DNA of 64,000 nucleotides, taken from Embleya scabrispora (GTDB lineage Bacteria > Actinomycetota > Actinomycetes > Streptomycetales > Streptomycetaceae). Below the pieces are notes generated by a model. The model saw only the letters and a program-made list of their open reading frames with translations, was not told the origin of the DNA and ran no database searches. This document shows, in pieces, positions 6,867 through 64,000 of the stretch. A program made the translations under genes and the position numbers. Location: NCBI RefSeq assembly GCF_002024165.1, contig NZ_MWQN01000001.1:1302001-1366000 (forward strand), read 5' to 3'. Within the stretch, counting starts at the first letter, position 1, and the number at the start of each line of letters is the position of its first letter.

Positions 6867-6885
6867 GGCGAACCCCCTGCCCATA

Positions 6886-6908
6886 AAGTTGATTGACTCC
6901 ATCAACTT
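6886..6908. promoter_or_regulatory. MarR-like operator upstream of amidohydrolase pair
   Basis: Outer dyad AAGTTGAT-N7-ATCAACTT (6886-6893/6901-6908) contains the 13-mer TTGACTCCATCAA (6893-6905). The same TTGAC-N3-RTCAA pattern lies in front of the marR gene (35970-35982) and the enoyl-CoA hydratase gene (35279-35291). Proposed site for the MarR protein encoded at 35468-35950. Confidence 0.55.
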
Positions 6909-6948
6909 AACAGCAGCAGGGGGCAACGGCCATAGCCAAACGCGCGCG

Positions 6949-8328: not shown

Positions 8329-8947
8329 CGCCCGCCGTACCTCCTGACTTGGTTCGCTCGTCGTTGGCCCAGTCAAGCAGGGCCGGGGTGGCGTGGCGCA
8401 ACGTGCGGAACGCCCGGAACCCGTCCACCGCCAAGCGCGGCCGGAGCAGTTCGCGCTCCGGGGTGTCGGTGATCACCCGGATCACCCCGGCCGGCCGCTC
8501 CCCCGCCGCCGCGAGCAGGTACGCCGACTCCATGTCGGCGGCCAGCACGCCCCGTTCGCGGAGCGTGCCCCGGGCCCGACCCTTGACCAGCTTGTCCACC
8601 GTCTCGATCGGGCCGTGATGCAGCGTCAGCTTCGGCGAGACCCGCTGCATCCACTCCAACAGCACCCCGGACGTGGGCAGTTCGACCACCGTCCCGTCCG
8701 AGCCGCGCACCTCGGAGGCGACCACCACGTCACCCACCGCGACCCCCGGTCCCACGCCCGCGCCGAATCCCGCCACCGCCAACGTGCCGAACTCCTCGGC
8801 CGGCAGCGCGGACAGGGCCCGCGCGCGGGCACGAGCCTTGTCCGCTCCCATGCCCGCGCGCACCACGCGCACGTTGAACGCCCCCATCAGCCCCGCCTCG
8901 ACCGCGCGCATCTCGATCCGAAGCGGAGTGACCACCATCAAGGGCAT
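8309..8947 (-). CDS. hpnG: nucleoside phosphorylase family protein, HpnG-like
   Basis: A 212-residue phosphorylase-superfamily protein with the active-site VLAADMESAYLLAAAGE near residue 140 and a glycine-rich AVAGFGAGVGPGVAVGDVV near 60. HpnG removes adenine from adenosylhopane to give phosphoribohopane/ribosylhopane. It starts 3 nt after the squalene-hopene cyclase stop, and its C-terminus overlaps the aminotransferase start. Its substrate is made by the radical-SAM enzyme HpnH, whose gene is not in this window although it normally sits between hpnG and the aminotransferase. Confidence 0.82.
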   Translation of the reverse strand: MPLMVVTPLRIEMRAVEAGLMGAFNVRVVRAGMGADKARARARALSALPAEEFGTLAVAGFGAGVGPGVAVGDVVVASEVRGSDGTVVELPTSGVLLEWMQRVSPKLTLHHGPIETVDKLVKGRARGTLRERGVLAADMESAYLLAAAGERPAGVIRVITDTPERELLRPRLAVDGFRAFRTLRHATPALLDWANDERTKSGGTAGDDVRPG

Positions 8948-8950
8948 GAT

Positions 8951-10864
8951 TCAGCCTGTCGTCCTGGCATACCGGCCGAGCGCCATCACGGGGAAGACGA
9001 GCCGGTACATGTGGTACTTGATGTAGAAGTCGCCGGGGAAACCGGTGCCGGTGAACTGCGGCTCGTCCCAACCGCCCAGCTCGTTCTGATGCTCGGTCAG
9101 CCAGTCGATCCCACGCTGCGCGACCTCGCCGAACTCGCCTGCCGCATGCAGCGCGAGCAGCGCCCACGCGGTCTGCGACGCGGTCGACTCGCCGCGTCCC
9201 GACCAGGCCTCGGCCTCGTCGTAGCTGCGCAGATCCTCGCCCCAGCCGCCGTCCGGGTTCTGCCGCGCCTCCAGCCAGGCCACCGCGCGCCGGATCGCCG
9301 CGTGTCGGGGGTCGACCCCGGCGGTCACCAGCGCCGGCACCACCGCGCCGGTGCCGTAGACGTAGTTCGCGCCCCAGCGGCCGAACCAGGAGCCGTCCGC
9401 CTCCTGATGCTCCATCAGCCACTTGACGCCGTCGGCCACGTAGGAGCTGTAGCGGGCGCCGCCGTCGGCCAGCATCTCCACGATGTGCGCGGTCACGTCG
9501 GCCGAGGGCGGATCGGTGACCGCGCCGAAATCACTGAACGGCAACTTCAGCGGCAGGATGCTGACGTTGTCCGCGTCGAACGCGCCCCACCCGCCGTCCT
9601 TGCTGCGCATCCCGGCGGTCCACCGCTCGGCCCGGTCCAGAACCGCGTCCTTGCGCGCCCCGTCGGGGTGGTCGGTGTAGCGCAGGGCCATCACGATCTC
9701 GGCCGTGTCGTCGGTGTCCGGGTAGTAGTCATTGGCGAACTCGAAGGCCCACCCGCCCGGTTCCAGATGCGGTCGGCGCACCGCCCAGTCGCCGACCTCG
9801 CGGATCTCCTCGTCCATCAGCCACCCGGCCGCCTTGACCACCCTCGGGTCGCCCGCCGGGACCCCCGCGTCCCGCAGGGCGACCAGGGTCAGGCCCGTGT
9901 CCCACACCGGCGACTGGCACGCCTCGAACCGGCGGCGCACCTCGCCGTCCTCGTCGGTGTCCACGATGGTGAAGCCGTCCAGGCCCTTGATGCCCTGGGC
10001 CATCACCGGGTGGTTGAGCGGATACCCCATCAGCCGCAGCGCGATCAGCGAGTAGACCCACGGCGGTTGGATGCCGCCCCAGCCGCCGTCGGCCTCCTGG
10101 CGGCGGATGATCCACTGCTCGGCCTTGCGCATCGCGGCCTGCCGGATCGGCTTGATCGGCCGCTTCCGGTACTGGTGCAGCCCGGCGTCCAGCGCGCGGA
10201 AGACCCGCGACCACGGGTCGGTGGCGGCCGTCTTGCCCACCACCGGCCTGGTCGGGCGCAGTTCGCCCAGGCCGAACGGCGCGGGCCGGACCGGGCGCAT
10301 CGAGCTGACGATGGTCAGCGGCACGATGGTCTGCCGGGCCCAGCAGGCGAAGTCGTAGACGTTGAGCGGGAACCACTTGGGCAGGTAGACGATCTCCGGC
10401 GGCAGCACCGGCAGTTCGTCCCACGACCACCAGCCGAAGAAGGCCAGCCAGAAGCGGGTGAACACCCGCGTCTCGGCCAGGCCGCCGCCGTCGCGGATGA
10501 ACTCCGCCGCCGCCGCCATGTGCTTGGCGTCGGGGTCGTCGCCCGCCAACTTCAGCGCCACGTAGGCCTCGACCGTCACCGACAGGTCGGCGGGCCCGCC
10601 GAAGAAGGTCGACCAGGTGCCGTCGGCGCGCTGGTTGGCCCGGATCCACCGGGCGCTCGCCGCGGTCTGTTCCTCGGTGCGGATGCCCAGGAACTCGCGG
10701 AAGAGCAGATCCTCGGCGTCCATCGTGACGTTGGTCTCGAGTTCCCCCTTCCACCAGCCCGCATCGTCCTGAAGCTCCATCAGATGAGCGACGGCCTTGT
10801 CGAGCGCGTCCCTGACCCTGTCATCACTGACATCGCCGATTCCCGGCTGGGCGGTCACTGTCAT
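8951..10864 (-). CDS. shc: squalene-hopene cyclase
   Basis: A 637-residue monotopic membrane cyclase converting squalene to hopene/hopanol. The catalytic acid motif DTDDTA is near residues 381-386. At least seven QW-type repeats can be seen (QDDAGWW, QRADGTW, QEADGGWGG, SKDGGWGAF, QEADGSWFG, QNPDGGWGE, QNELGGWDE), as expected for the alpha/alpha-barrel fold. Length is normal. It starts 4 nt after the prenyltransferase stop in the hpn operon. Product hopanoids act as membrane sterol analogues in streptomycetes. Confidence 0.97.
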   Translation of the reverse strand: MTVTAQPGIGDVSDDRVRDALDKAVAHLMELQDDAGWWKGELETNVTMDAEDLLFREFLGIRTEEQTAASARWIRANQRADGTWSTFFGGPADLSVTVEAYVALKLAGDDPDAKHMAAAAEFIRDGGGLAETRVFTRFWLAFFGWWSWDELPVLPPEIVYLPKWFPLNVYDFACWARQTIVPLTIVSSMRPVRPAPFGLGELRPTRPVVGKTAATDPWSRVFRALDAGLHQYRKRPIKPIRQAAMRKAEQWIIRRQEADGGWGGIQPPWVYSLIALRLMGYPLNHPVMAQGIKGLDGFTIVDTDEDGEVRRRFEACQSPVWDTGLTLVALRDAGVPAGDPRVVKAAGWLMDEEIREVGDWAVRRPHLEPGGWAFEFANDYYPDTDDTAEIVMALRYTDHPDGARKDAVLDRAERWTAGMRSKDGGWGAFDADNVSILPLKLPFSDFGAVTDPPSADVTAHIVEMLADGGARYSSYVADGVKWLMEHQEADGSWFGRWGANYVYGTGAVVPALVTAGVDPRHAAIRRAVAWLEARQNPDGGWGEDLRSYDEAEAWSGRGESTASQTAWALLALHAAGEFGEVAQRGIDWLTEHQNELGGWDEPQFTGTGFPGDFYIKYHMYRLVFPVMALGRYARTTG

Positions 10865-10868
10865 CTCT

Positions 10869-11897
10869 TCACAACTCCCGAGTGGTGGTGAAGGCCGCGA
10901 GAGAGGTCAGGTCCGTGTAGGTACCTTGCGGGACGTCCAGGGAGTCCAGGCAGGCCATCGCCTGCTCCAGGCGCCGAGCCGCCTCGGTCTCGGTGCGGGC
11001 ACGTCCGCCCGCCTCCTCGACCAGGCGCGCGGCCAGGGCCAGTCCCTCCTCGTTGCGCGGTCCTTCGTCCGTGTAGATGCGCGCCAGCTCACGGCCGGCG
11101 GTCGTGTCGCTCGCGAGCGCGGCGACGACCGGCACGGACTTCTTGCGCCGGCGCAGGTCGTTCCAGGCGGGTTTGCCGGTCACCTCGGGTCGCCCCCAGA
11201 TGCCCAGCAGGTCGTCCACCGCCTGGAAGGCGACGCCGAGGTGGTGCCCGAAGCCGTACAGCGCCTGCACGGTGCGCTCGTCGGCGCCCGCGAGGGCCGC
11301 CCCGATCGCCGACGCGCAGGCCAGCAGGGCCCCGGTCTTGTTGCCCGCCATGGTCAGGCACTCCTCGACGGTGACGTCGAGTCGGGCCTCGAAGGACAGG
11401 TCCTGGGACTGTCCGTCGATCAACCTGGCGGTCGCTTCGGTGAGCAGACGGGCGGCGCGATCGCCGTCCGCCTCGTCGGCGTCCATCAGGACCTGTTCGG
11501 CCAACACGAGCAGTCCGTCGCCGGCCAGGACGGCAAGTCCAGGACCGAAGACCTTCCACGCGGTGGGCCGATGCCGACGTTCCTCGTCGCCGTCCATGAG
11601 GTCGTCGTGGATCAGCGAGAAGTTGTGCACGAGTTCGACCGCGACCGCGCCCGGGACGCCCACGGCGGTCGGCGCGCCGACCGCCTCGGCGGACAGCAGC
11701 GCGAGGGCCGGGCGCAGCGCCTTGCCGCCGTTGCCCGGCAGTTCGCGGCCGGCCTCGTCGGCCCACCCCATGTGGTACGCGGCCACGCGGGCCAGGGGCG
11801 GTTCGAGTCGGGCGGTCGCGACCCGCAGCGCGGGGCGGCTCGCCTCGCGCGCGCGATCGAGCACGGCGGGGGCGATCGATGCGTCGGCGAGCGTCAT
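10869..11897 (-). CDS. polyprenyl (farnesyl-type) diphosphate synthase
   Basis: A 342-residue trans-isoprenyl diphosphate synthase: GGKALRPALALLSAEA near residue 70, first Asp-rich motif HDDLMDGDEERR near 105, GNKTGALLACA near 195 and second Asp-rich motif FQAVDDLLGIWG near 235. It supplies farnesyl diphosphate for squalene synthesis by HpnD/C/E. ATG 11897 overlaps the hpnE stop (ATGA), showing coupling. A longer upstream reading only covers the out-of-frame hpnE tail. Chain length is inferred from cluster context. Confidence 0.93.
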   Translation of the reverse strand: MTLADASIAPAVLDRAREASRPALRVATARLEPPLARVAAYHMGWADEAGRELPGNGGKALRPALALLSAEAVGAPTAVGVPGAVAVELVHNFSLIHDDLMDGDEERRHRPTAWKVFGPGLAVLAGDGLLVLAEQVLMDADEADGDRAARLLTEATARLIDGQSQDLSFEARLDVTVEECLTMAGNKTGALLACASAIGAALAGADERTVQALYGFGHHLGVAFQAVDDLLGIWGRPEVTGKPAWNDLRRRKKSVPVVAALASDTTAGRELARIYTDEGPRNEEGLALAARLVEEAGGRARTETEAARRLEQAMACLDSLDVPQGTYTDLTSLAAFTTTREL

Positions 11898-50701: not shown

Positions 50702-53314
50702 GTGGTGGACAAACTGAACATCACTCGCAAACTCGTCCTGCTCGTCGCCGTGCCGCTCACCGTGATGGTGGGTTCGGCGGGCCTCGCCGTGTCCACCACG
50801 ACCGGCGAAGCCCTGGACGCGAATCGCCTGCGCTCGCTGACCAAGGTGTCCGCCGAGGCGGGCGAACTCGCGCACCGGCTGCAGAGCGAACGCGCCGCGG
50901 CCACCGCAGTGTTGTGGCCCGACCCCGGCGCGCTGGCGGCGTACCACCAGCGCACCGCCGCGACGGACGAGAGCGCCGCGCGCTACCGCAAGCTGCGCAA
51001 GGACCTCGGCTCGATTCCCGGCAACACCAAGGAACGGTTGCGCAGGGTGGACGCGGGCCTGACCGACCTGACCGCGCTGCGCGAACAGGTCCAGGCGCCC
51101 AAGGGCACCTCGCTGACCGCCGTCGTCTTCCGCTACCGCATCCTGATCGCGGCCACGCTCGACTACCGCGACAGCGTGGCCCAGGCCGGCGGCGCCGGCC
51201 CCGACAACTCGGACCGACTGCGCGCGGCGGCGGCACTGTCCCACGCCACCGAGTGGCTCGGCCAGCAACAGAGCGCGGTGCTCCGTGCGTTGGCCGCCAA
51301 GACGGTCTCGCCGGCCCAACAGCAGGACATCCTGGCCACCCGCACCGGCTACAACGAGAGCGAGTCGTCGTTCGAGTCGCTCGCCGACGCGGACTGGATC
51401 CCCTGGCTGGAACAGGCCCAGACCGGGCCCGAGATCCAGGCCGTGCACCTCCTCGAGGACTCCGTCTCCCGGGTCCGCGCGGACGGCTCCATCTCCATCC
51501 CCCAGGATGTGTGGACCAAGGCGACCAACGACCGCATCGCCAAGATGAGCGATGTGGAGCGCAAGGTCGACGCCTCGGTGCTGTCCTCGGTCAGCGACGA
51601 GCGCGACTCCCGCCGCTGGTGGGCGATCGGCCAGGGCGGCGCGGTGCTGCTCGCACTGATCGCCGCCGTGCTGCTGGTGCTGCGCCTCGGCCGGCCGATG
51701 ACCCGTGAGCTGGTGCGTCTGCGCGACACCGCGCACGACGTGGCCTACTCCGGTCTGCCGGAAGCGGTCGCCAAGCTCCAGCAGGGTCGCTCCCTCGACG
51801 GCGCGACCGCCGAGGAGATGGCCGAACGCGCCGGCACCCCGATCGAGGTGCGCGGCAAGGACGAGATCGCCGAGGTGAGCTCGGCGTTCAACACCATGTT
51901 CACCTCCGCCGTCAAGATCGCCGCCGAACAGGCGGTCCTGCGCGCCGGTATCGCGACCGTGCTGGTCGCCCTCGCCCGCCGCAACCAGCGTCTGACCGAC
52001 GGTCTGGTCAAGGTCCTGGACGAGGCCGAGGCACACGAGCACGACCCGGACCGACTCAAGCGGCTGTACTCGCTGGACCACCTGGTCCAGCGCATGGGCC
52101 GCAACAACACCAGTCTGCTCGTGCTCGGCGGCGAGGGCACCGCGCGCGTGCGCGAGGACGCCCTGCTCCTGGACGTGGCGCGCGCGGCGGTCGGCCGGAT
52201 CGAACGATTCACCCGGGTCGACCCCGGCGCGGTGGACCCGCGCATCCTGATCGCCGGTCGGGCCCGCGACGACGTCGCGCACCTGCTCGCCGAACTCATG
52301 GACAACGCGACCAAGTTCAGCCGCCCGGAGACCTGGGTGGTGCTCCAGGCGAACCGGCGCGGCGACGGCGCGGTACTGACCGTGACCGACAGCGGTGTGG
52401 GCATCACTCCCGAGCGACTGGCCGCGTTCAACGAACGCCTGTCCTCGCCGGCCCAGTTGGACGTGCACGCGGTGCGCACGATGGGTCTGACCGTGGCCGG
52501 GCACCTCGCCTCGCGCTACGGCATCACCATCACCCTGGCGCCCGGACCCCAGGGCGGCACGGTCGCCGAGGTGGGTCTGCCCGAGACGATCGTGGTCTTC
52601 CGCGATCGACCCGGCCGGCACCGCGCGGGCGCGCCGAAGAACGAGGCGCCGGCGCTGCCGAAGCCGACTCCCACGCGCGCGATCGACAGCGGCGTACGTG
52701 CCGGCGGTCACCCCGACCCCGGTCCGTTCGAGCCCGTGCAGAACGTGTTCGCGCCGGTCAAGCCGCAACCGGTCAGCGACGCGAGCGCCCCCGGACCGCA
52801 GGAACCCGCGCCGTCGGGCCTGCGCTTCACCGGCTCCCGGCCGCCCGCTCCGGCCGCGCCCACCCCGCCGACGCTCGCCCCGCCGACCCGCACGCCGGCG
52901 AACCCGGCGGCACCGGCGATCCCGGGCACACCGGCCGGCCCGGCGAACCCGGCACTCCCGGGGACCCCGGCGACGCCGGACCGGTCCGCCGGACGCGGGG
53001 CCGAACCCCTGCCCCCGCGTTCGACCCCGGAGCCCTCGGAGTCCGGCCGCACCACCAACAAGGGCCTGCCGCTGCGGGTACGCCGGGACACCCCGACCGT
53101 GCACCCCGGCACGCCCCCCGCACCCGCCGCGCCGCTGGTCGGCTCGGCCGGGGCACCCGCCCGGGCGAACCCCACGACGCCGGACCGCCGAGACGCCCGC
53201 CAGGTGTCCGCGGCGATGTCGGCCTTCGCCCAGGGCATCGGGCACAGCCGGGCCCGACGCGCCCCCTCGCCCCGCCCCGACGGCGGCGAACCGGATCCCA
53301 AGGAGAGATCGTGA
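50702..53314 (+). CDS. conservon-type sensor histidine kinase with NIT domain (CvnA-like)
   Basis: An 870-residue membrane sensor. TM1 (about residues 8-30) and TM2 (305-327) flank an extracellular nitrate/nitrite-sensing-like helical domain. A HAMP-like linker follows, then the GHKL ATPase: N-box LAELMDNATKFSRP near 525 and G-box DSGVGI near 562. No standard H-box is obvious. The last 230 residues are Pro/Ala/Thr-rich, typical of conservon kinases. GTG 50702 overlaps well with family N-termini. Coupled to the roadblock gene (GTGA). Confidence 0.88.
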   Translation: MVDKLNITRKLVLLVAVPLTVMVGSAGLAVSTTTGEALDANRLRSLTKVSAEAGELAHRLQSERAAATAVLWPDPGALAAYHQRTAATDESAARYRKLRKDLGSIPGNTKERLRRVDAGLTDLTALREQVQAPKGTSLTAVVFRYRILIAATLDYRDSVAQAGGAGPDNSDRLRAAAALSHATEWLGQQQSAVLRALAAKTVSPAQQQDILATRTGYNESESSFESLADADWIPWLEQAQTGPEIQAVHLLEDSVSRVRADGSISIPQDVWTKATNDRIAKMSDVERKVDASVLSSVSDERDSRRWWAIGQGGAVLLALIAAVLLVLRLGRPMTRELVRLRDTAHDVAYSGLPEAVAKLQQGRSLDGATAEEMAERAGTPIEVRGKDEIAEVSSAFNTMFTSAVKIAAEQAVLRAGIATVLVALARRNQRLTDGLVKVLDEAEAHEHDPDRLKRLYSLDHLVQRMGRNNTSLLVLGGEGTARVREDALLLDVARAAVGRIERFTRVDPGAVDPRILIAGRARDDVAHLLAELMDNATKFSRPETWVVLQANRRGDGAVLTVTDSGVGITPERLAAFNERLSSPAQLDVHAVRTMGLTVAGHLASRYGITITLAPGPQGGTVAEVGLPETIVVFRDRPGRHRAGAPKNEAPALPKPTPTRAIDSGVRAGGHPDPGPFEPVQNVFAPVKPQPVSDASAPGPQEPAPSGLRFTGSRPPAPAAPTPPTLAPPTRTPANPAAPAIPGTPAGPANPALPGTPATPDRSAGRGAEPLPPRSTPEPSESGRTTNKGLPLRVRRDTPTVHPGTPPAPAAPLVGSAGAPARANPTTPDRRDARQVSAAMSAFAQGIGHSRARRAPSPRPDGGEPDPKERS

Positions 53315-53736
53315 CCCACCCCACCGCAGCCGATCTCAGCTGGCTGCTCAACGATTTCGCCACGCGGGTGCCCGATGTGCTGCACGCCGTCGCGGTCTCC
53401 GCGGACGGCCTCGTGGTGGCCAACACCAGCACGCTGCCGCAGGACCGCGCCGACCAGCTCGGCGCGGTCGCGTCCGGCCTGGTCAGCCTTCTGGCCGGTG
53501 CCGCACGGCTGTTCGGCACCGACCCGGTGGCCAGCAACCTGACCGAGATGAACGGTGCGTTCATGTTCTCGATGCAGGTCAGCGACGGCGCGTCGCTGCT
53601 CGTGCTGGCCTCGCGCGAGTGCGACATCGGCCAGGTCTCGTTCGAGATGGCCGAGCTGATCAACCAGGTCGGCCCGGCCCTGACCCCCGCGGCACGGGAG
53701 CGCTTCCTGCACGTGCAGCGCGGCGCGCTGAGCTGA
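53311..53736 (+). CDS. roadblock/LC7 domain protein (CvnB-like)
   Basis: A 141-residue roadblock/LC7 protein: LSWLLNDFATRVPDVLHAVAVSADGLVVANTS near residue 7 and GAFMFSMQVSDGASLLVLASRECDIGQVSFEM near 80, the conservon CvnB pattern. Presumed membrane-associated scaffold for the neighbouring kinase and a small GTPase. The GTPase (CvnD) and DUF742 (CvnC) genes normally found downstream are missing; a Liv-type transporter follows instead at 85 nt. Confidence 0.92.
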   Translation: MTHPTAADLSWLLNDFATRVPDVLHAVAVSADGLVVANTSTLPQDRADQLGAVASGLVSLLAGAARLFGTDPVASNLTEMNGAFMFSMQVSDGASLLVLASRECDIGQVSFEMAELINQVGPALTPAARERFLHVQRGALS

Positions 53737-53821
53737 GCCGACCGACGCATCCCCGCGTCCCTCCCGACGCGACCCATCCCATCGATCGACCGCTGTACCC
53801 GTCCGAACCCTGGAGCACGTC

Positions 53822-55036
53822 ATGACCCCGGCAAGTCCCATATCCCGTCGCTCGTTCCGCGTCTCCGCCGCGGGACTGCTCGCCGGCGCGCTCGCGTTCA
53901 CCGCCGCGTGCAGCGGCAGCGCGGCCGACGACAAGAAGGGCGGCTCGTCCTCGGGCACGCTCAAGATCGGCCTGACGATCCCGCTCACCGGTGTGTACGC
54001 GGCGCTCGGGCCGGACCTGCAGAACGGCTTCCAGACCTACCTGGACCAGCACGGCGGCAAGCTGGGCGGGCACAAGGTCGAGCTCGTGATCACCGACGAG
54101 GGCGACGGTCCGCAGACCTCGGTGCCCTCGGTGACCAAGCTGATCAAGCAGGACAAGGTCACCGCGGTGGTGGGTCTGTCCAACGCCGCCACGGTGGCGG
54201 CCAACGTGGACCTGGTGAACGACAACAAGGTGCCCATGATCGGCGCCGTCGGCCGCCCCGGCGAGATCAAGCGGCAGGACTACGTCTGGCACACCAGCTA
54301 CCTCTCCGAGGAGCCGGGTGTGGCGGCGGCGCCGTACATCAAGGAGGCCGTGCAGGGTCCGGTCTACGCGATCGGCCCCGAGTACCAGGGTGGGTTCGAC
54401 CAGCTGCGCGGCTTCACCGAGACGTTCGACAAGCTCGGCGGCAAGCTGGCCAACCCGGACGGCAAGACCAAGTGGACGCCGTTCCCGGCGACCACCAACT
54501 TCCAGCCGTACTTCAACGAGATCAAGAACTCGGGCGCCAAGGCGGTCTACACGTTCTACGCGGGCACCGCCGCGGTGAACTTCGTCAAGCAGTACAAGCA
54601 GTCCGACATCAAGGACATCCCGCTGTACGCGGCGGGCTTCCTGACCGAGGGCGCGGTGCTCGGCGCCGAGGGCGACGCGGCCAAGGGCGTGTTCACCTCG
54701 CTCAACTACACGCCCACGCTGGACATCCCGGCCAACCGCTCGTTCGTCTCGGCCTACCAGGCGAAGTACAACACGCTGCCGACGATGATGTCGGCCACGA
54801 TGTACGACGCGGCGGCCGTGCTGGACAAGGCGATCGCCGCCGCCGGCGACAAGGTCACCCCGGAGGCGGTCAACGCCCAGATCGCCAACACCGGCAAGGT
54901 GGACAGCCCGCGCGGTCCCTGGGAGTTCAACACCAAGTCGCACGCCCCGGTGCAGAAGTGGTACCTGCGTGAGGTCAAGCAGGACGGCACCGCGCTGAGC
55001 AACGTGATGGTCCGCGAACTCGGCACCCTGGGCTGA
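53822..55036 (+). CDS. branched-chain amino acid-type ABC substrate-binding lipoprotein
   Basis: A 404-residue type I periplasmic-binding protein. It has a Tat-like RRSF signal with lipobox AFTAACSG near residue 30 and mature start TLKIGLTIPLTGVYAALGPDLQNGFQTYLDQ. VTAVVGLSNAATVAANVDLVNDNKVPMIGA near 115 and the C-terminal YDAAAVLDKAIAAAG are LivJ/HAAT-like. Ligand may be a branched-chain amino acid, amide or aromatic acid. First gene of the transporter; 85 nt after the roadblock gene. Confidence 0.92.
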   Translation: MTPASPISRRSFRVSAAGLLAGALAFTAACSGSAADDKKGGSSSGTLKIGLTIPLTGVYAALGPDLQNGFQTYLDQHGGKLGGHKVELVITDEGDGPQTSVPSVTKLIKQDKVTAVVGLSNAATVAANVDLVNDNKVPMIGAVGRPGEIKRQDYVWHTSYLSEEPGVAAAPYIKEAVQGPVYAIGPEYQGGFDQLRGFTETFDKLGGKLANPDGKTKWTPFPATTNFQPYFNEIKNSGAKAVYTFYAGTAAVNFVKQYKQSDIKDIPLYAAGFLTEGAVLGAEGDAAKGVFTSLNYTPTLDIPANRSFVSAYQAKYNTLPTMMSATMYDAAAVLDKAIAAAGDKVTPEAVNAQIANTGKVDSPRGPWEFNTKSHAPVQKWYLREVKQDGTALSNVMVRELGTLG

Positions 55037-55066
55037 CGGCGGATCGGGAGCGAAAGGAAGCGTGCC

Positions 55067-55942
55067 GTGGGCTGGTTCGACGACAATTTCATCCCGGCCC
55101 TGGACGGAGTGGCCTACGGGCTGCTGCTGTTCGTCGTGGCCGCGGGCCTGACTCTGGCCTTCGGTTCGGGCGGGGTCCTCAACCTCGCGCACGGCACGCT
55201 CTACGCGTTCGCCGCCTACACCGCCACCGAGGTCGCCGACGGCTCGTGGCTGGGCCTGGTGCTCGCGGTGCTCGCGGGAATCGCGGCGGGCGCGGCCGGC
55301 GGCGGGGTGCTCGCGGTGATGACCGCCCCGATCGCCGGCAGAGGACACATGGCGCAGGCCATGTTGACCTTCGGTGTCGCCCTGGTCGGCGGCGATCTGC
55401 TGATGACCGTATTCGGCAAGGACGACCCGCAGGTCTCGGTGCCCGGTGCGCTGGAGAAGCCGGTATCGATCCTGGGCCACAACTACCCCGGCTACCGGCT
55501 GGCGTTCATCGTGGTCGCCGTCGCGCTCGGCGCGGGCGGCTGGTACGTGCTGGCCCGCACCCGGATCGGCGCGGCCGTGCGCGCCTCCGTGGACGACCCC
55601 GAGATGCTCGCGGCCGGCGGCATCTCGCCCGCCCGGGTGCGCTCGGGCGTACTGATCGCGGCCGGCGCGCTGGCCGGTCTCGCGGGCGGGCTTGGCGCGC
55701 CGATCATCGGCCCGTCCACGTCGGTGGCCAACACCGTGCTTTTGCAGTCCCTGCTGGTCGTGGTGATCGGCGGCCTCGGCTCGGTCGGCGGCGCGCTGCT
55801 CGCCGCGATCCTGGTCGGCGAGGTGCAGACCCTCGGGGTCACACTGATGCCCGACTTCGCGCCGTATCTGATGTACGCCACGATGGCCGTGATGCTGATC
55901 GCGCGGACCGCGCGCTTCGGCCCGACGGGGAGCCGAGTATGA
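55067..55942 (+). CDS. LivH-type ABC transporter permease
   Basis: A 291-residue permease with about eight hydrophobic helices: ALDGVAYGLLLFVVAAGLTLAFGSGGVLNLAHGTLYAFAAY at the N-terminus is the LivH hallmark; RTRIGAAVRASVDDPEMLAAGGISPARV near 160 is the cytoplasmic coupling loop. Stop and start of the fused gene downstream overlap (ATGA). The GTG start follows GAAAGGAAG. Inner membrane subunit of the Liv-type importer. Confidence 0.93.
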   Translation: MGWFDDNFIPALDGVAYGLLLFVVAAGLTLAFGSGGVLNLAHGTLYAFAAYTATEVADGSWLGLVLAVLAGIAAGAAGGGVLAVMTAPIAGRGHMAQAMLTFGVALVGGDLLMTVFGKDDPQVSVPGALEKPVSILGHNYPGYRLAFIVVAVALGAGGWYVLARTRIGAAVRASVDDPEMLAAGGISPARVRSGVLIAAGALAGLAGGLGAPIIGPSTSVANTVLLQSLLVVVIGGLGSVGGALLAAILVGEVQTLGVTLMPDFAPYLMYATMAVMLIARTARFGPTGSRV

Positions 55943-57843
55943 CCACCCTTGCAACGGCCGCCCTGCGCGCGCGTACCGCGCTGCACTCGCCGCGCGGGAT
56001 CCTGGCGGGTCGGATCCTGGCCGTCGCAGCGATCGTGTGGCTGATCGCGGCGCCGTACATGGTCGACCTGTTCACCATCATCCTGCTGTCCCAGGCGCTG
56101 TCCCTGGGCCTGCTCGCGGTCAGCGTCGCGGTGCTCGGCGGCGGCGCCGGGCTGCCCTCGCTCGGCCAGGTCGCGCCCTACGCGGTCGGCGGCTACACGG
56201 CGGCGATCCTGGCCGACCACGGCATGCGGATCGGCGTCGTACACACCCTGGTGGCGGCCGCGGCGGGTGCCCTGTTCAACGCGCTCACCGCGCCGATCGT
56301 GGTCCGCACGCGCGGTGTCACGGTCCTGATGATCACGCTGGCCGTCGGCGAACTGGTGCGCACCGCGGCGGAGAAGTGGAAGTCGGTCACCGGCGGTACC
56401 GACGGCAAGTCCGGCATCCCGCCGATCGAGCCGTTCTGGGGCATGGGCGACCTCGTCGACGACGTGGACACCTACTGGTACGTACTGCTCACCACGCTCG
56501 TGGTGATCGCCCTCACCGCGCTCGTGCTGCGCTCGCCGGCCGGACTGCTCCTCGACGGCGCGCGCGAGAACGAGACGCGGATGCGCGCGACGGGCCACCC
56601 GGTGACCCGCTATCTCACCGTCACCTACATCGGGGTCGGCGCCATCGCGGGTGTCGCGGGCGCGCTGTTGATCTCGATCCAGCGCTACATCTCCCCCGCG
56701 CACATCGGCTTCGACACCTCCTCGCTGGTGCTGCTCGCGGTGGTCATCGGCGGCGGCGCGTCGCTGGTGGGCGCGATGATCGGCGCGGCGCTGATCGTGT
56801 TCACCCGGGACTGGCTGTCCGGTCCGTGGCCGGGGCACGGGCCGCTGCTGCTCGGCCTGCTGTTCCTGATCGCGGTCTACACGCTGCCGGGCGGGCTGGC
56901 CGGGGTGGTCGCGGGCGGGCCGCGCGCTGCGTGGCGAAGTCTGGCCAAGGTGATCCGATCGGACGGGAAGTCCACGGAAGCGGACGAGCCGACGGCGAGC
57001 GAGCCGACGGCGAGCGAACCGGCCGGTAAGCCGGACCTCGCCAAGCGGGCGGCGAGCGGGGCGAGCGGCGCAGGCGCCGCCGACGCCTTGCTCACCATCA
57101 CCGGTCTGACCCGGCGCTACGGCGCGCTGGCCGCGGTGGACGGTCTCGACCTGACCGTGCGTCGCGGTGCCCGGCACGCGCTGCTCGGCCCCAACGGCGC
57201 GGGCAAGTCGACCGTGCTGGCGATGATCGCGGGCGCGAATCCGGTCACCTCGGGCACCATCGTCTTCGACGGTTGCGACATCACCGACCTGGCCCCGGCC
57301 CGGCGCTCCCGCCTGGGCATCGCCCGCGCGTTCCAACAGCCCGCGGTGGTGCCCTCGTTGTCGGTCCTGGACAACGTGACCCTGGCCGCCTGGCGGCACG
57401 CCCGGCGCGGCGGCATCGCGTGGCGCCCGGGCCGCTACCGCGCCCTCGCGGGCGAGGCGGCGATCCATCTGGAGACGGTCGGCCTGACCGCGCGCGCCGA
57501 CGAGATCGCCGGCGAACTCTCGCACGGCTCCCGCCGGTTGCTGGACATCGCGATGGCGCTCGCGGGGCATCCGAAGCTGCTGCTCCTGGACGAGCCGGCC
57601 GCAGGTCTGACCGACACCGACATCGAGTTGCTGGCCGACGTACTCAAGGCACTGCCCGCCGAGGTGACCATGGTCCTGGTCGAGCACAACTTCGCGCTGG
57701 TGCGCGAGGTCACCGACACCGTCACGGTGTTGGCCTCGGGGCAACTGCTCGCCACCGGCACGCCGGACGAGATCGCCGAGGACCGGGCGGTGCGCGACAC
57801 CTATCTGGGCGCGTCCGAGCCCGAGCACCAGGAAGTGGGCTGA
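55939..57843 (+). CDS. LivM-LivG fusion: ABC permease plus ATP-binding protein
   Basis: A 634-residue fusion. Residues 1-345 are a LivM-type permease (LSLGLLAVSVAVLGGGAGLPSLGQVAPYAVGGYTAAILA and RENETRMRATGHPVTRYL loop). A polar linker with a TASEP repeat follows (346-385). Residues 390-634 are a LivG-type ATPase with GPNGAGKST near 416, LSHGSRRLLDIAMALAG near 540 and LLLLDEPAAGLTDTD near 555. It couples transport to ATP hydrolysis with LivF. ATG 55939 overlaps the LivH stop. Confidence 0.92.
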   Translation: MTTLATAALRARTALHSPRGILAGRILAVAAIVWLIAAPYMVDLFTIILLSQALSLGLLAVSVAVLGGGAGLPSLGQVAPYAVGGYTAAILADHGMRIGVVHTLVAAAAGALFNALTAPIVVRTRGVTVLMITLAVGELVRTAAEKWKSVTGGTDGKSGIPPIEPFWGMGDLVDDVDTYWYVLLTTLVVIALTALVLRSPAGLLLDGARENETRMRATGHPVTRYLTVTYIGVGAIAGVAGALLISIQRYISPAHIGFDTSSLVLLAVVIGGGASLVGAMIGAALIVFTRDWLSGPWPGHGPLLLGLLFLIAVYTLPGGLAGVVAGGPRAAWRSLAKVIRSDGKSTEADEPTASEPTASEPAGKPDLAKRAASGASGAGAADALLTITGLTRRYGALAAVDGLDLTVRRGARHALLGPNGAGKSTVLAMIAGANPVTSGTIVFDGCDITDLAPARRSRLGIARAFQQPAVVPSLSVLDNVTLAAWRHARRGGIAWRPGRYRALAGEAAIHLETVGLTARADEIAGELSHGSRRLLDIAMALAGHPKLLLLDEPAAGLTDTDIELLADVLKALPAEVTMVLVEHNFALVREVTDTVTVLASGQLLATGTPDEIAEDRAVRDTYLGASEPEHQEVG

Positions 57844-57847
57844 CATC

Positions 57848-58555
57848 GTGCTGGAGATCGGCGAACTGACGGCGGGCTACCAGGGCGGCTCGGTGCTGCA
57901 CGGGGTCGACCTGAGCGTGCCCGAGGGCACCGTGCACGCGCTCCTGGGCGCCAACGGGGCGGGCAAATCCACCCTGATCCATACCGTCGCGGGCCTGCTC
58001 AAGCCCTCCGGCGGACGGGTCGAACTGGCCGGTGTCGACCTCACCGGGCGCCCGGCGCACCGGGTCTCGCACGCGGGCATCGGCCTGGTGCCGCAGGGCC
58101 GGCGGGTGTTCGCGAGCCTGACCGTCGCCGAGCATCTGCGCCTCGCCCACCGCAAGCACGCCGCGTGGACGCCCGCGCGCGTGTTGGAACTGCTGCCCCG
58201 ACTGGGCGAGCGGGCCGGCAACCGCGGCTCGCAACTCTCCGGCGGGGAACAGCAGATGCTGGCCATCGCCCGGGCGCTGCTCGGCGGTCCGCGGCTGATC
58301 CTGCTCGACGAGCCGACGGAGGGCCTGTCCCCCGTGATCGCCGAGCAGATCCGGCAACTGATCACCACCCTCGCCGGCGAGGGCCTGACGATCCTGATCG
58401 CGGCGCCGCAACTGGGCTTCGTGCAGGGCATCGCGGACCGGCTGACCGTGCTGTCCACGGGCCGGGTCACCGCCCGGATGACCGCGGCCGAGGCGGCGGC
58501 CGACCCGGAGCCGATCCTCGCCGCACTGGCGCCGGGCGTGGCCCACGTGGGCTGA
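57848..58555 (+). CDS. livF: LivF-type ABC transporter ATP-binding protein
   Basis: A 235-residue ATPase: Walker A GANGAGKST near residue 34, signature LSGGEQQMLAIARAL near 127, Walker B ILLDEPTEGLSPV near 150, VPQGRRVFASLTVAEHL near 80. LivF pairs with the ATPase domain of the fused gene. GTG 57848 is 4 nt after the fusion stop. Last gene of the unit; a strong terminator follows. The gene symbol reflects family membership; ligand of the system is unproven. Confidence 0.9.
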   Translation: MLEIGELTAGYQGGSVLHGVDLSVPEGTVHALLGANGAGKSTLIHTVAGLLKPSGGRVELAGVDLTGRPAHRVSHAGIGLVPQGRRVFASLTVAEHLRLAHRKHAAWTPARVLELLPRLGERAGNRGSQLSGGEQQMLAIARALLGGPRLILLDEPTEGLSPVIAEQIRQLITTLAGEGLTILIAAPQLGFVQGIADRLTVLSTGRVTARMTAAEAAADPEPILAALAPGVAHVG

Positions 58556-58600: not shown

Positions 58601-59287
58601 TCACAGGTCCACGCGTCGGATCTCCAGCGTGGTCCAGGCCCCCACATGCACCCGGTCGCCGTCCTTCAGGTGCACCGGGTCGCGGCGGACCCGGTCGTAA
58701 CCGGAGTTGATGGTGGTCCCGTTGGCCGATCCGAGATCCATCACCTCCCACGTCCCGTCCCCGCAGCGCAGCAACATCGCATGCCGACGCGAGACGCCCG
58801 GGTCGGTGATCGGGATCTCGGGCGGAGCGGAGCTGGTGCCGGCGTTGCGCCGGCCGATCCGCATCGACTCGCCGGTCAACTCCTGCGTCCACGGCTCCTG
58901 TTCATGCGGGAAGTGCATATTGTGCGCGTCCGGGCCGTCCCATTCGAGCACCCGCAGGAAGTAGTCGTGATCGGGCATGACCCGCACGGTCCACAGGGTG
59001 CGGGTGGTCGGCGGAGGCTCCGGGTCCCGCTTCCCGGACGACCCGTCGTCCGGGGGAGGATCCACCACGTCGACGACGGTCGTCGAGGGGTTCTCGTGCC
59101 CGCAGCCCTCGCAGAACTGGTCGTCGGGGGTGTACTCGGTGGCACAGATCCGACAGATCAGCGTGCCCCAGGGCGGCTGTTCGGAACCCCCGCCGCCACC
59201 GGAGGGCTCCGCGACGGTCATGGTGCGCCCGCACTCGTCGCAGTAGTCCGCGGCGGTGGATTGATGGCCGACCGGACAGATGTGCAT
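58601..59287 (-). CDS. FHA-domain protein with double zinc ribbon
   Basis: A 228-residue protein. The N-terminal zinc-ribbon-like knuckles are CPVGHQSTAADYCDECG and CRICATEYTPDDQFCEGCG (residues 4-70). A Pro/Gly linker is followed by an FHA phosphopeptide-binding domain: MRIGRRNAG near 145, ITDPGVSRRHAML near 165, and DLGSANGTTINSG near 190. It probably reads Thr phosphorylation set by the linked PknG-type kinase. ATG 59287 follows AAGGAGGTCC. Last gene of the operon, 56 nt after the VWA gene. Confidence 0.93.
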   Translation of the reverse strand: MHICPVGHQSTAADYCDECGRTMTVAEPSGGGGGSEQPPWGTLICRICATEYTPDDQFCEGCGHENPSTTVVDVVDPPPDDGSSGKRDPEPPPTTRTLWTVRVMPDHDYFLRVLEWDGPDAHNMHFPHEQEPWTQELTGESMRIGRRNAGTSSAPPEIPITDPGVSRRHAMLLRCGDGTWEVMDLGSANGTTINSGYDRVRRDPVHLKDGDRVHVGAWTTLEIRRVDL

Positions 59288-59343
59288 GAGCGGACCTCCT
59301 TCCTGTTCCCCTACCCGACCCGACGCTCGCGGAGCGGCGATGC

Positions 59344-60642
59344 TCAGTCCCGGGTGGGCGGTCCGACGCGGGCGGTCTTGTGCGACTCCACGTCGATGAT
59401 CATCATGCCCTCCTCGTCGTTGCGCAGCCGACTGGTGCCGTCGGCCTCGACCTCGACGACCCGGCGGAGCAGCTTCGCGGTGTGCTCGTCGCCCGCCTCG
59501 TCGGCCAGTTCGAGGGCCTGGACCAGGCGAGCGGTCGCGGTGGTCTCGTCCCCCCGCGTGCGCGCCTCCAAGCCTTCCTGGACGGCATTGGCCAGTTTCT
59601 CCCGGCCGGTGACCTTGGCGACCTCGGAGTTGATCCGGGTGGACAGCTCCTCGTCGTCGGTCCACTGCGCGAAGACGCCGGCCTTGGCCAGTTCCAGGCC
59701 GCCCGAGCCGTCCGGCAGGACCACCGAGACCTGGCACGGCCGGCGCTTGCCGCCCGGGTTGACCTCGTCCGGCTCGACCTCGAGACAGATGTGGTAGTGC
59801 TTGCTCTCGCCGCCCCACGACCCGGTCGGGTAGTCACCGGCGTTCGGGCCGACGTCGGTACGCCGGGCGGTCAGGTCGTCGATCACCGGGTAGGTCTGCT
59901 TGACGTACTTCACCCGCGCGTTGTTGATGGTGCGCACGCGCAGGGCCACGTCGGCCACGGCCTTGCCCATCGCGTTCTCCATCATCTTGGTGAAGTCCGC
60001 GACCAGGTCTGCCGGTTCGCTCACCAAGCCGATGTCGCCGAGCAGCGCGTTGGAGATCTTGCGCACCTCGTCCACCCGCCAGTCCAGGCCGATGCCGCGG
60101 CAGTCGCAGACGAACACGCCCTCGCAGTAGGCGATCGCCTCGGCCAGGTCCTGCTCGCGCTCGCTCTCGTTCTTGCCGTCGGTGAGCAGGATCGCGTGCC
60201 GGATCGCGTCGCGGTGCGGTTCGAGCAGCCGACGGGCCATCAGCAACCACTGGCCCATGGCGGTGCCGCCGCGGGCGCGGAGCTTGTCCACCTCGCGCTT
60301 GGCCTCCTTGCGGCTGCGGTCGTCGGCCGGTACGAGCACCTCGTCGAACGGGTAGACCATCGACGCCATGCCGGTCCCGGAGACCACCGCGAACAGCGTG
60401 CCGTCGCGCAGCGTGTCGATCGCCGCCTTGGTGGCCTGCTTGGCCGCCTTGAGCTTGCTGGAGGGGAAGTCCATCGAGCCCGAGGTGTCCACCATGATCA
60501 CCTCGGCGCCACGCCTGGCCGAGGCCGTGCCCGTCGGCAGCCCGGAAGCCTTGATGTGGGCCACGGCGTGGACCTCGTGTCCACCCATCGGTAGGTAGGC
60601 GTTCTGGTTGATCTCGATGGTGAATTCGGGGGCGCCTGACAT
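59344..60642 (-). CDS. VWA domain-containing protein
   Basis: A 432-residue soluble protein. The VWA domain starts near residue 47 with an intact MIDAS: DTSGS near 51-55, Thr in RGGTAMGQW, and Asp in LLTDGKNES near 145. The rest is alpha/beta with a C-terminal Glu-rich helix (ALELADEAGDEHTAKLL). It likely mediates divalent-metal-dependent protein contact in a phosphorelay with the kinase, phosphatase and FHA genes. ATG 60642 follows GAAGGAG, 25 nt after the phosphatase gene. Confidence 0.92.
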   Translation of the reverse strand: MSGAPEFTIEINQNAYLPMGGHEVHAVAHIKASGLPTGTASARRGAEVIMVDTSGSMDFPSSKLKAAKQATKAAIDTLRDGTLFAVVSGTGMASMVYPFDEVLVPADDRSRKEAKREVDKLRARGGTAMGQWLLMARRLLEPHRDAIRHAILLTDGKNESEREQDLAEAIAYCEGVFVCDCRGIGLDWRVDEVRKISNALLGDIGLVSEPADLVADFTKMMENAMGKAVADVALRVRTINNARVKYVKQTYPVIDDLTARRTDVGPNAGDYPTGSWGGESKHYHICLEVEPDEVNPGGKRRPCQVSVVLPDGSGGLELAKAGVFAQWTDDEELSTRINSEVAKVTGREKLANAVQEGLEARTRGDETTATARLVQALELADEAGDEHTAKLLRRVVEVEADGTSRLRNDEEGMMIIDVESHKTARVGPPTRD

Positions 60643-60667
60643 GAATCCGACTCCTTCGCGTCTCGGG

Positions 60668-61924
60668 TCAGTCGTGGTGGGGGTCGCGTGCGGCGTCCCC
60701 GGGCGGGAGGTATGGGATGAGGGCGACGGTGATGTTGTCCGCGCCGCCCTGGTCCAGGGCGAACCCGGTGAGCAACCGGGCCGCGGCCAACGGCTGCTCC
60801 AGCGCGTCCGGGAGCACCATCGCGGCCAGCGTCGGTGCCACCGAAAGGTAGTTCCACAGCCCGTCGCTGCACAGCAGCAGCACGCCGGGCCCGGTCGGAC
60901 GCACGCTGGTCACCCGGGGCCGCACCTCGCCGGCGTCGGCGCCGAGCCAGGACACGATCGCGTGCGCGCGCCGATCCGCGTACGCCTCGGCCTCGGTCAT
61001 CGCGCCGAGCGCGATCATCCGGGTCGCCCACGAGTCGTCCTCGGTCAGCAGCGCGGAGGGGGTGCGCCGGTCCTGCTCGTCGTCGGGCCCGGCCGACGCC
61101 TCGACCGCCCCGCGGGGCAGCGTGCTCGCACCGGGCAGCGTGTCGTCGCCGTCCGCCGGATCGTCGGCCCCGCTGCCCGGGTCGGCCAGCCAGTAGGCGC
61201 GGCTGTCGCCCACCCAGCCCACGGTGATCTCGCCGGGCGTCATGATCGCCGAAACCAGCGTGCACGCGGGCGCGTTGCCCTGGTCCTCGGTGCCGGGCAT
61301 CCGGGCCACCGCGCTCGCGGCGGCGGCCACCCCGGCGCTGGTGGCCTTGGCCGGCGCGCACCCTTCGATCAAGGTCGCCGCCATCGTCGCGCACGCGGTC
61401 GTGGCCGCGGTCGCCGAGGCCTCGTCGGGCCGCGGCGAGGAGGACACCCCGTCGCAGACCACCGCCACCACCCGCTTGCTGCCGTCGGGCATCTCGAACA
61501 CGCGCAGCGCCGCGGAGTCCTCGTTGCGCCGGTGGCGCAGCCCCCGGTTGCTCACCATCGCGACCAGGCCGCTCAGGTCGCTTTCCACGTGGTCGCGCGG
61601 GTTGAACGGCCGTCCGCACGCCTCGCACCAGCCGTCCGAGCCGATGGTCGCGGTGCCACAGGCGGAGCAAACCGGTCCGTGTCCGCTGGGCGCGGGTACC
61701 CGCCGCGGCGGCGGACGTTCGGCCACCGGGGTCGGGGGGATGTCCAGGTCGTAGCCGCACGACTCGCAGTAGCGGTCGTCGGCGTCACCGGCCAGACCGC
61801 AGGACGGGCACCCGTCGGGGACGGCCGTCGCGGGCGGCTCGGGCGGCGGGGCGGCCTCGCCCCCGTTCGGGGCGCCCCCGAGCCCGGTCGCGTCCAGTCG
61901 TCCATATCCAGCCACTCTGATCAC
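60668..61924 (-). CDS. PP2C-type serine/threonine phosphatase with two zinc-ribbon modules
   Basis: A 418-residue protein. Two N-terminal Cys4 knuckles are CPSCGLAGDADDRYCESCG (about 40-58) and CSACGTATIGSDGWCEACG (about 88-106). The catalytic PP2C domain has RNEDSAALR near 140, CDGVSSS near 165, GWVGDSRAYW near 240, LLLCSDGLWNYL near 340 and GGADNITVALI near 390, all intact. It should reverse PknG-type phosphorylation. GTG 61924 overlaps the kinase stop (GTGA). Confidence 0.93.
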   Translation of the reverse strand: MIRVAGYGRLDATGLGGAPNGGEAAPPPEPPATAVPDGCPSCGLAGDADDRYCESCGYDLDIPPTPVAERPPPRRVPAPSGHGPVCSACGTATIGSDGWCEACGRPFNPRDHVESDLSGLVAMVSNRGLRHRRNEDSAALRVFEMPDGSKRVVAVVCDGVSSSPRPDEASATAATTACATMAATLIEGCAPAKATSAGVAAAASAVARMPGTEDQGNAPACTLVSAIMTPGEITVGWVGDSRAYWLADPGSGADDPADGDDTLPGASTLPRGAVEASAGPDDEQDRRTPSALLTEDDSWATRMIALGAMTEAEAYADRRAHAIVSWLGADAGEVRPRVTSVRPTGPGVLLLCSDGLWNYLSVAPTLAAMVLPDALEQPLAAARLLTGFALDQGGADNITVALIPYLPPGDAARDPHHD

Positions 61925-64000
61925 ACCCACGTCCACGGTCGCACTTCGTTCGCCCGGTCGACGAGCGCGATGCGCTCCGCATGCGTCGTCACGTGCCGGG
62001 CCAGATCGCGGTAACACTTTTCCAAGGCGAACCGCAGAGGCTTTTCCTTCAACTCGCTGCCGAGCACCCTCGCGGTTCCATCCGCCCCCCCGGCGCCCGA
62101 ATTCCCCCCGTTCGCACCTGCCTTCACCCACTCCAGGGCCGTCTCCAACAACTCCACGGCGAGCCGGTCGTGCGCCTCGCCCTCCAGTCGCAGCGCACCG
62201 AGCCGATCGGACGCGGTGGTCAGGTCCGGCCCCAGCGGCTCGGCGGCGGCCCGGCCGCTGATCCGGGTGCGCAACGCGGCGGTCTGCGCCGCGACATGGT
62301 TGGCCGAGGTGTCCGGCACGCTCTCCAGGATGCGTACCGCGCCCGCCCGGTCGCCGGTCGCGAGCAGGCAACGGGCCAGGCCGAAGGCGGCCGAGACGTA
62401 CGCGTGGTCGGTCGACCAGACGCCGCGGTACTCGGCGGCGGCCTCGGAGTGACGGCCCATCAGTTCGCGGCAGGCGCCCAGCGCGATACGCGGCGCCGGC
62501 TCGCCGGGCAGCGCACCCCGCACCCCGTCGAAGAACTCGTGGGCGCGCGGGAGATCGTGCTGGGACAGCGCCGCCAGCCCCTCGAACCAGGGCAGTCGCC
62601 AGTCGTCGGCGTCGATGTCGGCCAGGAACGCCCGGGCGCGCACCACGTCGCCCTGTTCGATGCACATCCGGACCAGGCGCAGCGTGCCCTCGGCCGAGGA
62701 GATGCCCGCGGCGGTGAGCGCGGAGAGCAGTTCGTCGGGGTCGGTGGTGGCGACCGTGGCCAGCAGGTTGGCGGCCGGGTCGAGGGGGTCGACCCGGGGC
62801 ACCGGCAGCGCGCCGGCGATGACCGAGGGGTCGGGCGCGGGCGCGAGCAGCCCGGGTTCGGTGTTGCGCGCGGCCACCTCGGCGTGCACCACCCGCGTCT
62901 CCGGCCCGAACAGGCCGGACACGCCCGGGCGCGGCTCGCCGGAGCGGATCGCGACCACCTCGCGCAGCACCGCGACGCACTGCTCGGCCATGTCCGCCGC
63001 GGAGGCGAAGCGCTGTTCCGGGTCGGGGTGCGTGGCCCGCAGCAACAGGCGGTGATAGGACTCGAATTCGGTGAACAGCGGCACGTCGGCGGCGGGCGGC
63101 AGGGATGCCTTGTACTTGCGGGTGTAGCCGGCGAAGTAGAAGCTGAGCACCGCCATCGTGCGACCGATGGTGAACAGGTCCGACTCCACCGACGGTTCGG
63201 CCCGCACGGTCTCGATCTCGGGCGCCTGGTAGCCGACCGTGCCGTAGGTGAACTTGCCCGGCCGGGCCAGGTCGGTCACCGCGCCGAGGTCGATCAGCTT
63301 GAGCTGGTCCTCGGTCTGGATCACGTTGTCCGGCTTGAAGTCGCAGTAGACCAGGTTCTGTTGGTGCAGGTAGCCGAACGCGGGCAGGATGTCGATCGCG
63401 TAGGCCAGGACCTGCTCGACCGGCAGCACGGCCTTGGGGTCCACCTCGCGCATCTGCTTGAGCCGGTCCATCAGCGACAGGCCGCCGACGTACTCCATCA
63501 CCAGGTAGGTCTCGTCCTGACCGGTGAGCGGGTCGGGGTGCTGGACCACGGTCTGGATGTGCACGATGTTGGCGTGCTGGATCTGGGTGAGGATGCGCTG
63601 TTCGGCCAGGGCCGCGGCGCGCGAGTCGGGGTCGTCGCTGCCGAGCAGGCCCTTGAGGACGACCCACATGTTGTGCGCGGCGGTGTCCTGGGCGAGGTAG
63701 ACCCAGCCGAATCCGCCGCGGGCGAGGCAGCCGATGATCCGGTATTGGCCGACCATGTCGTCGCGCTGGAGCTTGGGCGCGAAGGAGAACGGCGTGCGGT
63801 CGCGCGGACAGAAGCCGTTGGCCACCCCGGGCCGGCCGCCGCGCCCGCGCCCGACGGGCTGTTCGCACTTGCGGCAAAACCGCTTCTCCTCCGGGATGAC
63901 CGGATTGCGGGCCAGCGCGCTCTCGGGGTTGCGGCGCGGCACGTTCGGCATCTCGACCAGACCGCCGCCCAGTCGCCGACTGGTCCCGGTGCTGCCGCGT
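61921..64000 (-). CDS. pknG: serine/threonine protein kinase PknG-type (5' end beyond window)
   Basis: About 693 residues visible, N-terminus beyond the right edge; the frame continues upstream of 63951 as a typical RRLGGGLVEMP stretch. Then a rubredoxin-like FCRKCEQPVG...GFCPRDRTPFSF region, where the fourth Cys is Asp. Kinase core: G-loop ARGGFGWVYLAQD, Lys in VVLKGLLG, YCDFKPDNV catalytic loop, LIDLGAVTD instead of DFG, TVGYQAPEI. A C-terminal TPR-like domain spans about 400-660. PknG senses amino-acid status in mycobacteria; here it is co-transcribed with PP2C, VWA and FHA genes. Confidence 0.93.
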   Translation of the reverse strand, partial: RGSTGTSRRLGGGLVEMPNVPRRNPESALARNPVIPEEKRFCRKCEQPVGRGRGGRPGVANGFCPRDRTPFSFAPKLQRDDMVGQYRIIGCLARGGFGWVYLAQDTAAHNMWVVLKGLLGSDDPDSRAAALAEQRILTQIQHANIVHIQTVVQHPDPLTGQDETYLVMEYVGGLSLMDRLKQMREVDPKAVLPVEQVLAYAIDILPAFGYLHQQNLVYCDFKPDNVIQTEDQLKLIDLGAVTDLARPGKFTYGTVGYQAPEIETVRAEPSVESDLFTIGRTMAVLSFYFAGYTRKYKASLPPAADVPLFTEFESYHRLLLRATHPDPEQRFASAADMAEQCVAVLREVVAIRSGEPRPGVSGLFGPETRVVHAEVAARNTEPGLLAPAPDPSVIAGALPVPRVDPLDPAANLLATVATTDPDELLSALTAAGISSAEGTLRLVRMCIEQGDVVRARAFLADIDADDWRLPWFEGLAALSQHDLPRAHEFFDGVRGALPGEPAPRIALGACRELMGRHSEAAAEYRGVWSTDHAYVSAAFGLARCLLATGDRAGAVRILESVPDTSANHVAAQTAALRTRISGRAAAEPLGPDLTTASDRLGALRLEGEAHDRLAVELLETALEWVKAGANGGNSGAGGADGTARVLGSELKEKPLRFALEKCYRDLARHVTTHAERIALVDRANEVRPWTWV

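Follow-up and report, generated by a model that had tools for sequence, protein, structure and literature searches.

Conservons comprise CvnA to CvnD with an optional CvnE or CvnF, and signal reception by their kinases is described as largely unexplored, with the ligands of the NIT domains unknown, in the part of the account covered here (PMC13343842). CvnC (DUF742) has been proposed as their transcriptional output (PMC8510531). In the sections of PMC4316618 covered, an LPxR motif is described for conservon kinases, and orphan MglB homologues flanked by conservon genes are read as GTPase loss. A precedent for a substrate-binding protein (SBP) that binds the sensor domain of a kinase is provided by CuaD-CuaS (PMC10384115). 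Here we focused on a window of 64,000 nucleotides from the 10.96 Mb genome of the soil actinomycete Embleya scabrispora, in which a CvnA-type kinase and a roadblock protein precede a Liv-type importer. The locus is best read as a GTPase-less form of a CvnA-CvnB(-CvnD)-SBP(-LivHMGF) system and not as a conservon, whether intact or split.

Locus layout and the conservon genes of the genome

The original prediction placed a conservon-like histidine kinase (HK) and roadblock protein (RB) 85 nt upstream of a Liv operon, and Pfam searches verified both the genes and the gap (Table 1). All genes are on the plus strand, in the order NIT-HAMP-kinase, RB, SBP, LivH, LivM-LivG fusion and LivF, and together they include a complete Liv/HAAT set by Pfam (SBP, two permeases and two ATPases). 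The kinase scored 129.8 bits for NIT and 52.4 for HATPase_c, with HAMP (23.5) slightly below the cut-off, and the SBP has 93-99% identity to two Embleya records. Overlaps of 4 nt join HK to RB and LivH to LivMG; the remaining gaps are 85 nt (RB-SBP), 30 nt (SBP-LivH) and 4 nt (LivMG-LivF). A promoter and terminator between RB and SBP had been named as evidence against the linkage, and neither was detected by a pattern scan, whose patterns miss some actinomycete promoters. Given the overlaps, the short gaps and the terminator-free RB-SBP gap, the genes from HK to LivF fit one operon.

Short same-strand gaps with no terminator found also suit co-regulation only, in which HK-RB controls its own operon, the transported substrate is the NIT ligand, and the SBP makes no contact with HK; sensor-importer operons of this autoregulated kind are common. 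We consider this fairly unlikely, as the cassette lacks both a response regulator and a CvnC through which it could act on DNA (a Pfam scan of the neighboring genes found no response regulator), and in some relatives the SBP alone was retained once the transporter was lost (see below).

The LivM and LivG parts of the fusion are joined by an Ala/Ser/Pro-rich linker; the fusion recurs in Embleya relatives and is present in L016 and L018, and the two are separate genes in L053, L155 and L088. A convergent cluster on the minus strand (58601-63951) adjoins the operon, with FHA/zinc-ribbon, VWA, PP2C-like and PknG-type kinase genes. Among the loci compared, FHA, VWA and PP2C genes next to the cassette were confined to those of Embleya.

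Table 1 Features of the window cassette (positions in the window) and of cassette 2 in the same genome (positions in locus L104)
Feature	Coordinates	Strand	Size and basis
CvnA-type sensor histidine kinase (HK), NIT-HAMP-HATPase_c	50702..53314	+	870 aa; Pfam, motifs, structure model
Roadblock/LC7 (CvnB/MglB-like) protein (RB)	53311..53736	+	141 aa; Pfam Robl_LC7 63.3 bits; tree
RB-SBP intergenic gap	53737..53821	+	85 nt; ribosome-binding site CCCTGGAGCAC; terminator not found
Liv-type substrate-binding protein (SBP)	53822..55036	+	404 aa; Pfam Peripla_BP_6 249.6 bits; PDB neighbours; clade
LivH-type permease	55067..55942	+	291 aa; Pfam BPD_transp_2
LivM permease and LivG ATPase, one fused ORF	55939..57843	+	634 aa
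LivF-type ATPase	57848..58555	+	235 aa; Pfam ABC_tran
Cassette 2 (G000:C2:62841-67390)	6642-11191		followed by a convergent gene
Cassette 2 HK	6642-9134		
Cassette 2 RB-like protein	9131-9643		
Cassette 2 SBP	9749-11191		

Genome-wide searches detected 8 roadblock genes, 7 DUF742 genes and 7 CvnD-type GTPases. Each of the DUF742 and GTPase genes adjoins one of the seven other roadblock genes (7:7:7, seven conservons), and an additional roadblock-like gene, beyond Pfam recognition, is found in a second cassette. The whole-genome search placed no DUF742 or CvnD gene near the window HK-RB, confirming the local absence already noted for this locus; as all 7 CvnC and 7 CvnD genes are beside other roadblocks, the window pair has no dedicated copy of either in the genome. 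The window thus has the CvnA of a conservon (a NIT/HAMP/HATPase kinase with a C-terminal LPxR) and the CvnB (a roadblock/LC7 gene directly after the kinase, with a 4-nt overlap, although its product groups apart from conservon CvnBs), and lacks CvnC (DUF742) and CvnD. Because these two defining features are absent, we did not class the locus as a conservon.

The suggested split conservon with its GTPase elsewhere finds no counterpart in this genome, which has no orphan CvnD or CvnC. The Embleya pair could still borrow, in trans, the CvnC and CvnD that belong to another conservon, given that the genome offers seven of each and that relatives encode the GTPase in cis. This is quite improbable in our view, since every one of these genes already has its own CvnB partner and the RB tree groups the window RB with other SBP-linked RBs, split from conservon CvnBs at 100/100.

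Conservation of the cassette across actinomycetes

The HK-RB-SBP order is kept in Embleya, Yinghuangia, other Streptomycetaceae genera, family f37 and Actinophytocola, and the genes flanking the cassette differ from genus to genus. Among the pooled SBP loci scoring ≥477 bits, 75/77 have an adjacent HK-RB, the exceptions being a contig edge and a divergent HK-RB, and no RB was found beside the slightly more distant SBPs below 477 bits (0/22 loci). The 77 loci were partly found via the RB first, and the SBP-first counts are therefore given separately. The search of 346 Streptomycetaceae genomes returned 30 matches in 26 genomes: 21 with RB directly upstream, two at contig edges, four diverged second cassettes (Embleya), one whose roadblock is diverged yet recognised by Pfam (G010) and two without a roadblock. 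For cassette 1 this corresponds to 21 of 23 matches with RB directly upstream, the other two being those at contig edges. In f37, 85 of 151 genomes had matches; a same-strand HK-RB was present at 52 of the 54 upper-end loci (L176-L229; one runs off the contig, one has a divergent HK-RB) and an RB at 0/20 of the weaker ones (L230-L249).

In the SBP trees, a supported branch separates the linked SBPs from the others (100/99; 99 in the second tree). L231 is an unlinked SBP paralogue nested inside the linked clade that has lost HK-RB. In the phylum sample, the SBP profile detected only distant, unlinked SBPs outside the Embleya genome. The linkage of HK-RB to SBP is well beyond chance expectation, and the proposed tie of the pair to the Liv operon withstood the comparison of gene order across families and differing neighbourhoods. 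The idea that an unrelated sensor pair and an importer lie together by chance has nothing in its favour besides the window itself, and the linkage at 75/77 loci in several families with differing surroundings rules it out for practical purposes, leaving it a negligible probability.

No strong RB match was found in the f17 family sample, which contained none of the known positive genomes, and on this basis the Actinophytocola cassette looks isolated. Its RB (L019) has 72% identity to the Embleya RB, above the RBs of several Streptomycetaceae relatives; this closeness across orders suggests that the cassette was horizontally transferred.

HK-RB plus transporter, all on one strand, were found at 65/77 loci. 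HK-RB-SBP without a downstream LivH was found at 10/77 (L151, L195, L212, L213, L216, L219, L221, L225, L019 and L104; L195 is on a short contig), including Actinophytocola (L019), genome G1166 (L151) and the window's own genome (L104). As an obligatory partner, the importer is ruled out by these ten cassettes. Transporter state required about three changes on the SBP tree by parsimony. The predicted wiring of HK-RB to the importer thus stands in part: given the ten loci without a transporter, the constant partner of HK-RB is the SBP and not the importer, and many relatives keep the GTPase that the prediction noted as missing.

Cassette 2 of the Embleya genome (L104) is diverged, ends with the SBP gene and is conserved in three further genomes of Embleya. 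Its roadblock was missed by Pfam and aligned to the linked RB profile at 97.7% probability by profile comparison; its nearest relative elsewhere in the genome is the window RB, not the conservon CvnBs.

These loci also bear on importer gating, in which HK-RB(-GTPase) would act on LivG/LivF or the permeases, replacing the DNA-binding CvnC output. CvnC, the proposed transcriptional output of conservons (PMC8510531), is missing from 77/77 loci with importer genes in its place, and the one-strand arrangement with a transporter at 65 loci also speaks for gating. The ten loci without an adjacent transporter, the repeated changes in transporter state and the terminal SBP of cassette 2 make it unlikely.

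A CvnD-type GTPase (PF03029) was found between RB and SBP at 19/77 loci, all in f37, and these GTPases have a P-loop of the GxxxxGK[TS] type. DUF742 (CvnC) was detected at 0/77 linked loci with an HMM that was positive in every control conservon scanned. GTPase presence required at least six changes on the SBP tree by parsimony, and the deepest GTPase-bearing loci (L218, L226) branch early. As the GTPase is also common to conservons, ancestral presence followed by losses is the simplest reading, and the ancestral cassette most likely encoded a CvnD-type GTPase that was lost later in some lineages, including Embleya. The GTPase tree is compatible with a single clade of linked GTPases without confirming it (p-AU 0.45). 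The GTPases of L202 (3920-4378) and L206 (5778-6239) are strongly diverged (124-132 bits vs 218-264 in other linked loci) and are possibly decaying.

Kinase tail and candidate ligand of the substrate-binding protein

All 24 linked HKs examined have the LPxR motif, the kinases of cassette 2 and G010 among them. The window HK also has a C-terminal island, RRDxRQVSxxMxAFAxGI, and the related RRDxxxVSxxMxAYAxGI was detected near the C-terminus of 22/24 linked HKs; it is kept from Embleya to Actinophytocola and f37, and the preceding linker is freely variable. In the AlphaFold model of the HK, the NIT bundle is well modelled, followed by the ATPase domain, a Pro/Ala-rich linker that is disordered (636-829) and, at the island, a single helix (830-845; pLDDT below 50). 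We infer that this tail may dock to the RB.

The N-terminus of the window SBP, read by eye, has a Tat-like RRSFR and a lipobox-like TAAC, and the protein is probably a membrane-anchored lipoprotein on the same side as the NIT domain. The best structural match of the SBP model was 4evq (RPA0668 with 4-hydroxybenzoate; Z 42.5, 31% identity), and the six best matches include four further R. palustris SBPs with benzoate derivatives. LivK/LivJ types rank below (Z about 38; 21-22% identity), and sequence profiles concur (4evq 3e-64 vs 2e-26 for a LivJ). None of the linked SBPs in the alignment has an acidic residue at the position of LivJ Glu226, which binds the amino group, and the position of Thr102, another contact residue of LivJ, is Arg. 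With the nearest solved SBPs binding aromatic acids and this glutamate absent, the amino-acid-like ligand originally suggested for both sensor and importer is doubtful. These comparisons instead favour an acid without an alpha-amino group, with aromatic acids as the best guess.

Comparison of the neighboring genes (PIG-L, amidase, P450, aminotransferase, esterase and methyltransferase) revealed no consistent pathway. At three loci from two genera, the gene immediately after LivF encodes a class I SAM methyltransferase and either overlaps or abuts LivF (L155:4469-5257, L157:11971-12783 and L152:11851-12627). The nearest Streptomycetaceae SBPs without HK-RB (L153:8661-10292, L154:8220-9848) lie divergently to a gene for a carboxylesterase, which may hint at the ligand.

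A candidate signalling route and its relation to known systems

In the mechanism that we favour, a lipoprotein SBP on the outside of the membrane would bind a small acid, perhaps aromatic, and pass it to LivHMGF in cassettes that have the importer. The co-encoded CvnA-type kinase would sense the state of the SBP through its extracytoplasmic NIT domain and signal via its flexible C-terminal tail (LPxR and the conserved helix) to the co-encoded CvnB-type roadblock. The next switch would ancestrally have been the CvnD-type GTPase, which roughly a quarter of the sampled relatives retain; the Embleya RB may engage the GTPase of one of the other conservons, or some different target directly. We favour SBP-to-NIT signalling because the SBP is kept with HK-RB after importer loss. 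Against it, co-transcription purely for co-expression would yield the same gene order, and most cassettes keep the transporter, so transport control is possible; we judge the route from SBP to NIT, and from tail to RB, to be about evenly balanced between right and wrong. Still more tentatively, and with doubt prevailing, the cassettes may represent a distinct G-protein signalling class in which a lipoprotein SBP is the receptor of the NIT kinase, CvnC is dispensed with, and the Embleya-type RB signals without a GTPase.

With a conserved SBP as its partner, a CvnA-type kinase gains a ligand receptor that is soluble and can be assayed. Because some natural cassettes have the GTPase or the importer and others do not, the step performed by each part can be dissected, including whether a roadblock protein can signal without a GTPase. 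As the arrangement recurs in several actinomycete families, it provides a way to test what conservon-type sensors detect.

In the conservon literature covered, from which subscription journals are mostly absent, no SBP or importer partner was found; relative to that literature, the locus is a variant built from conservon parts with a new SBP/importer partnership. It shares with the conservon/AGPS systems, such as Cvn8 and Cvn9 of Streptomyces coelicolor, the NIT-HAMP-HATPase kinase, the LPxR tail and the 4-nt overlapping roadblock gene, as far as the covered parts of their descriptions extend (PMC13343842, PMC8510531, PMC4316618), and some SBP-linked relatives also have the CvnD-type GTPase. 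It differs from them in that DUF742 is absent from all 77 loci, the window has no GTPase, an SBP and usually LivHMGF follow, and the SBP-linked RBs are split from conservon CvnBs at 100/100. The orphan MglB homologues are alike in having a roadblock in a conservon-like setting without a GTPase, whereas an SBP or importer partner is not reported for them in the covered sections (PMC4316618). Liv/HAAT importers have the same full LivHMGF set, and the aromatic-acid SBPs of R. palustris (RPA0668, 4evq; RPA0985, 4evs; 4ey3/4eyg) share the SBP fold and are the closest sequences; in contrast to such importers, the Embleya operon is led by HK and RB, and its LivM and LivG are fused. In the CuaD-CuaS-CuaR three-component sensor, the SBP gene is likewise beside the kinase, and the SBP is proposed to present its ligand to the extracellular domain (PMC10384115), whereas in the cassettes described here a roadblock protein, joined in some relatives by a GTPase, is found instead of a response regulator among the neighbours, and the SBP is of the Liv class.
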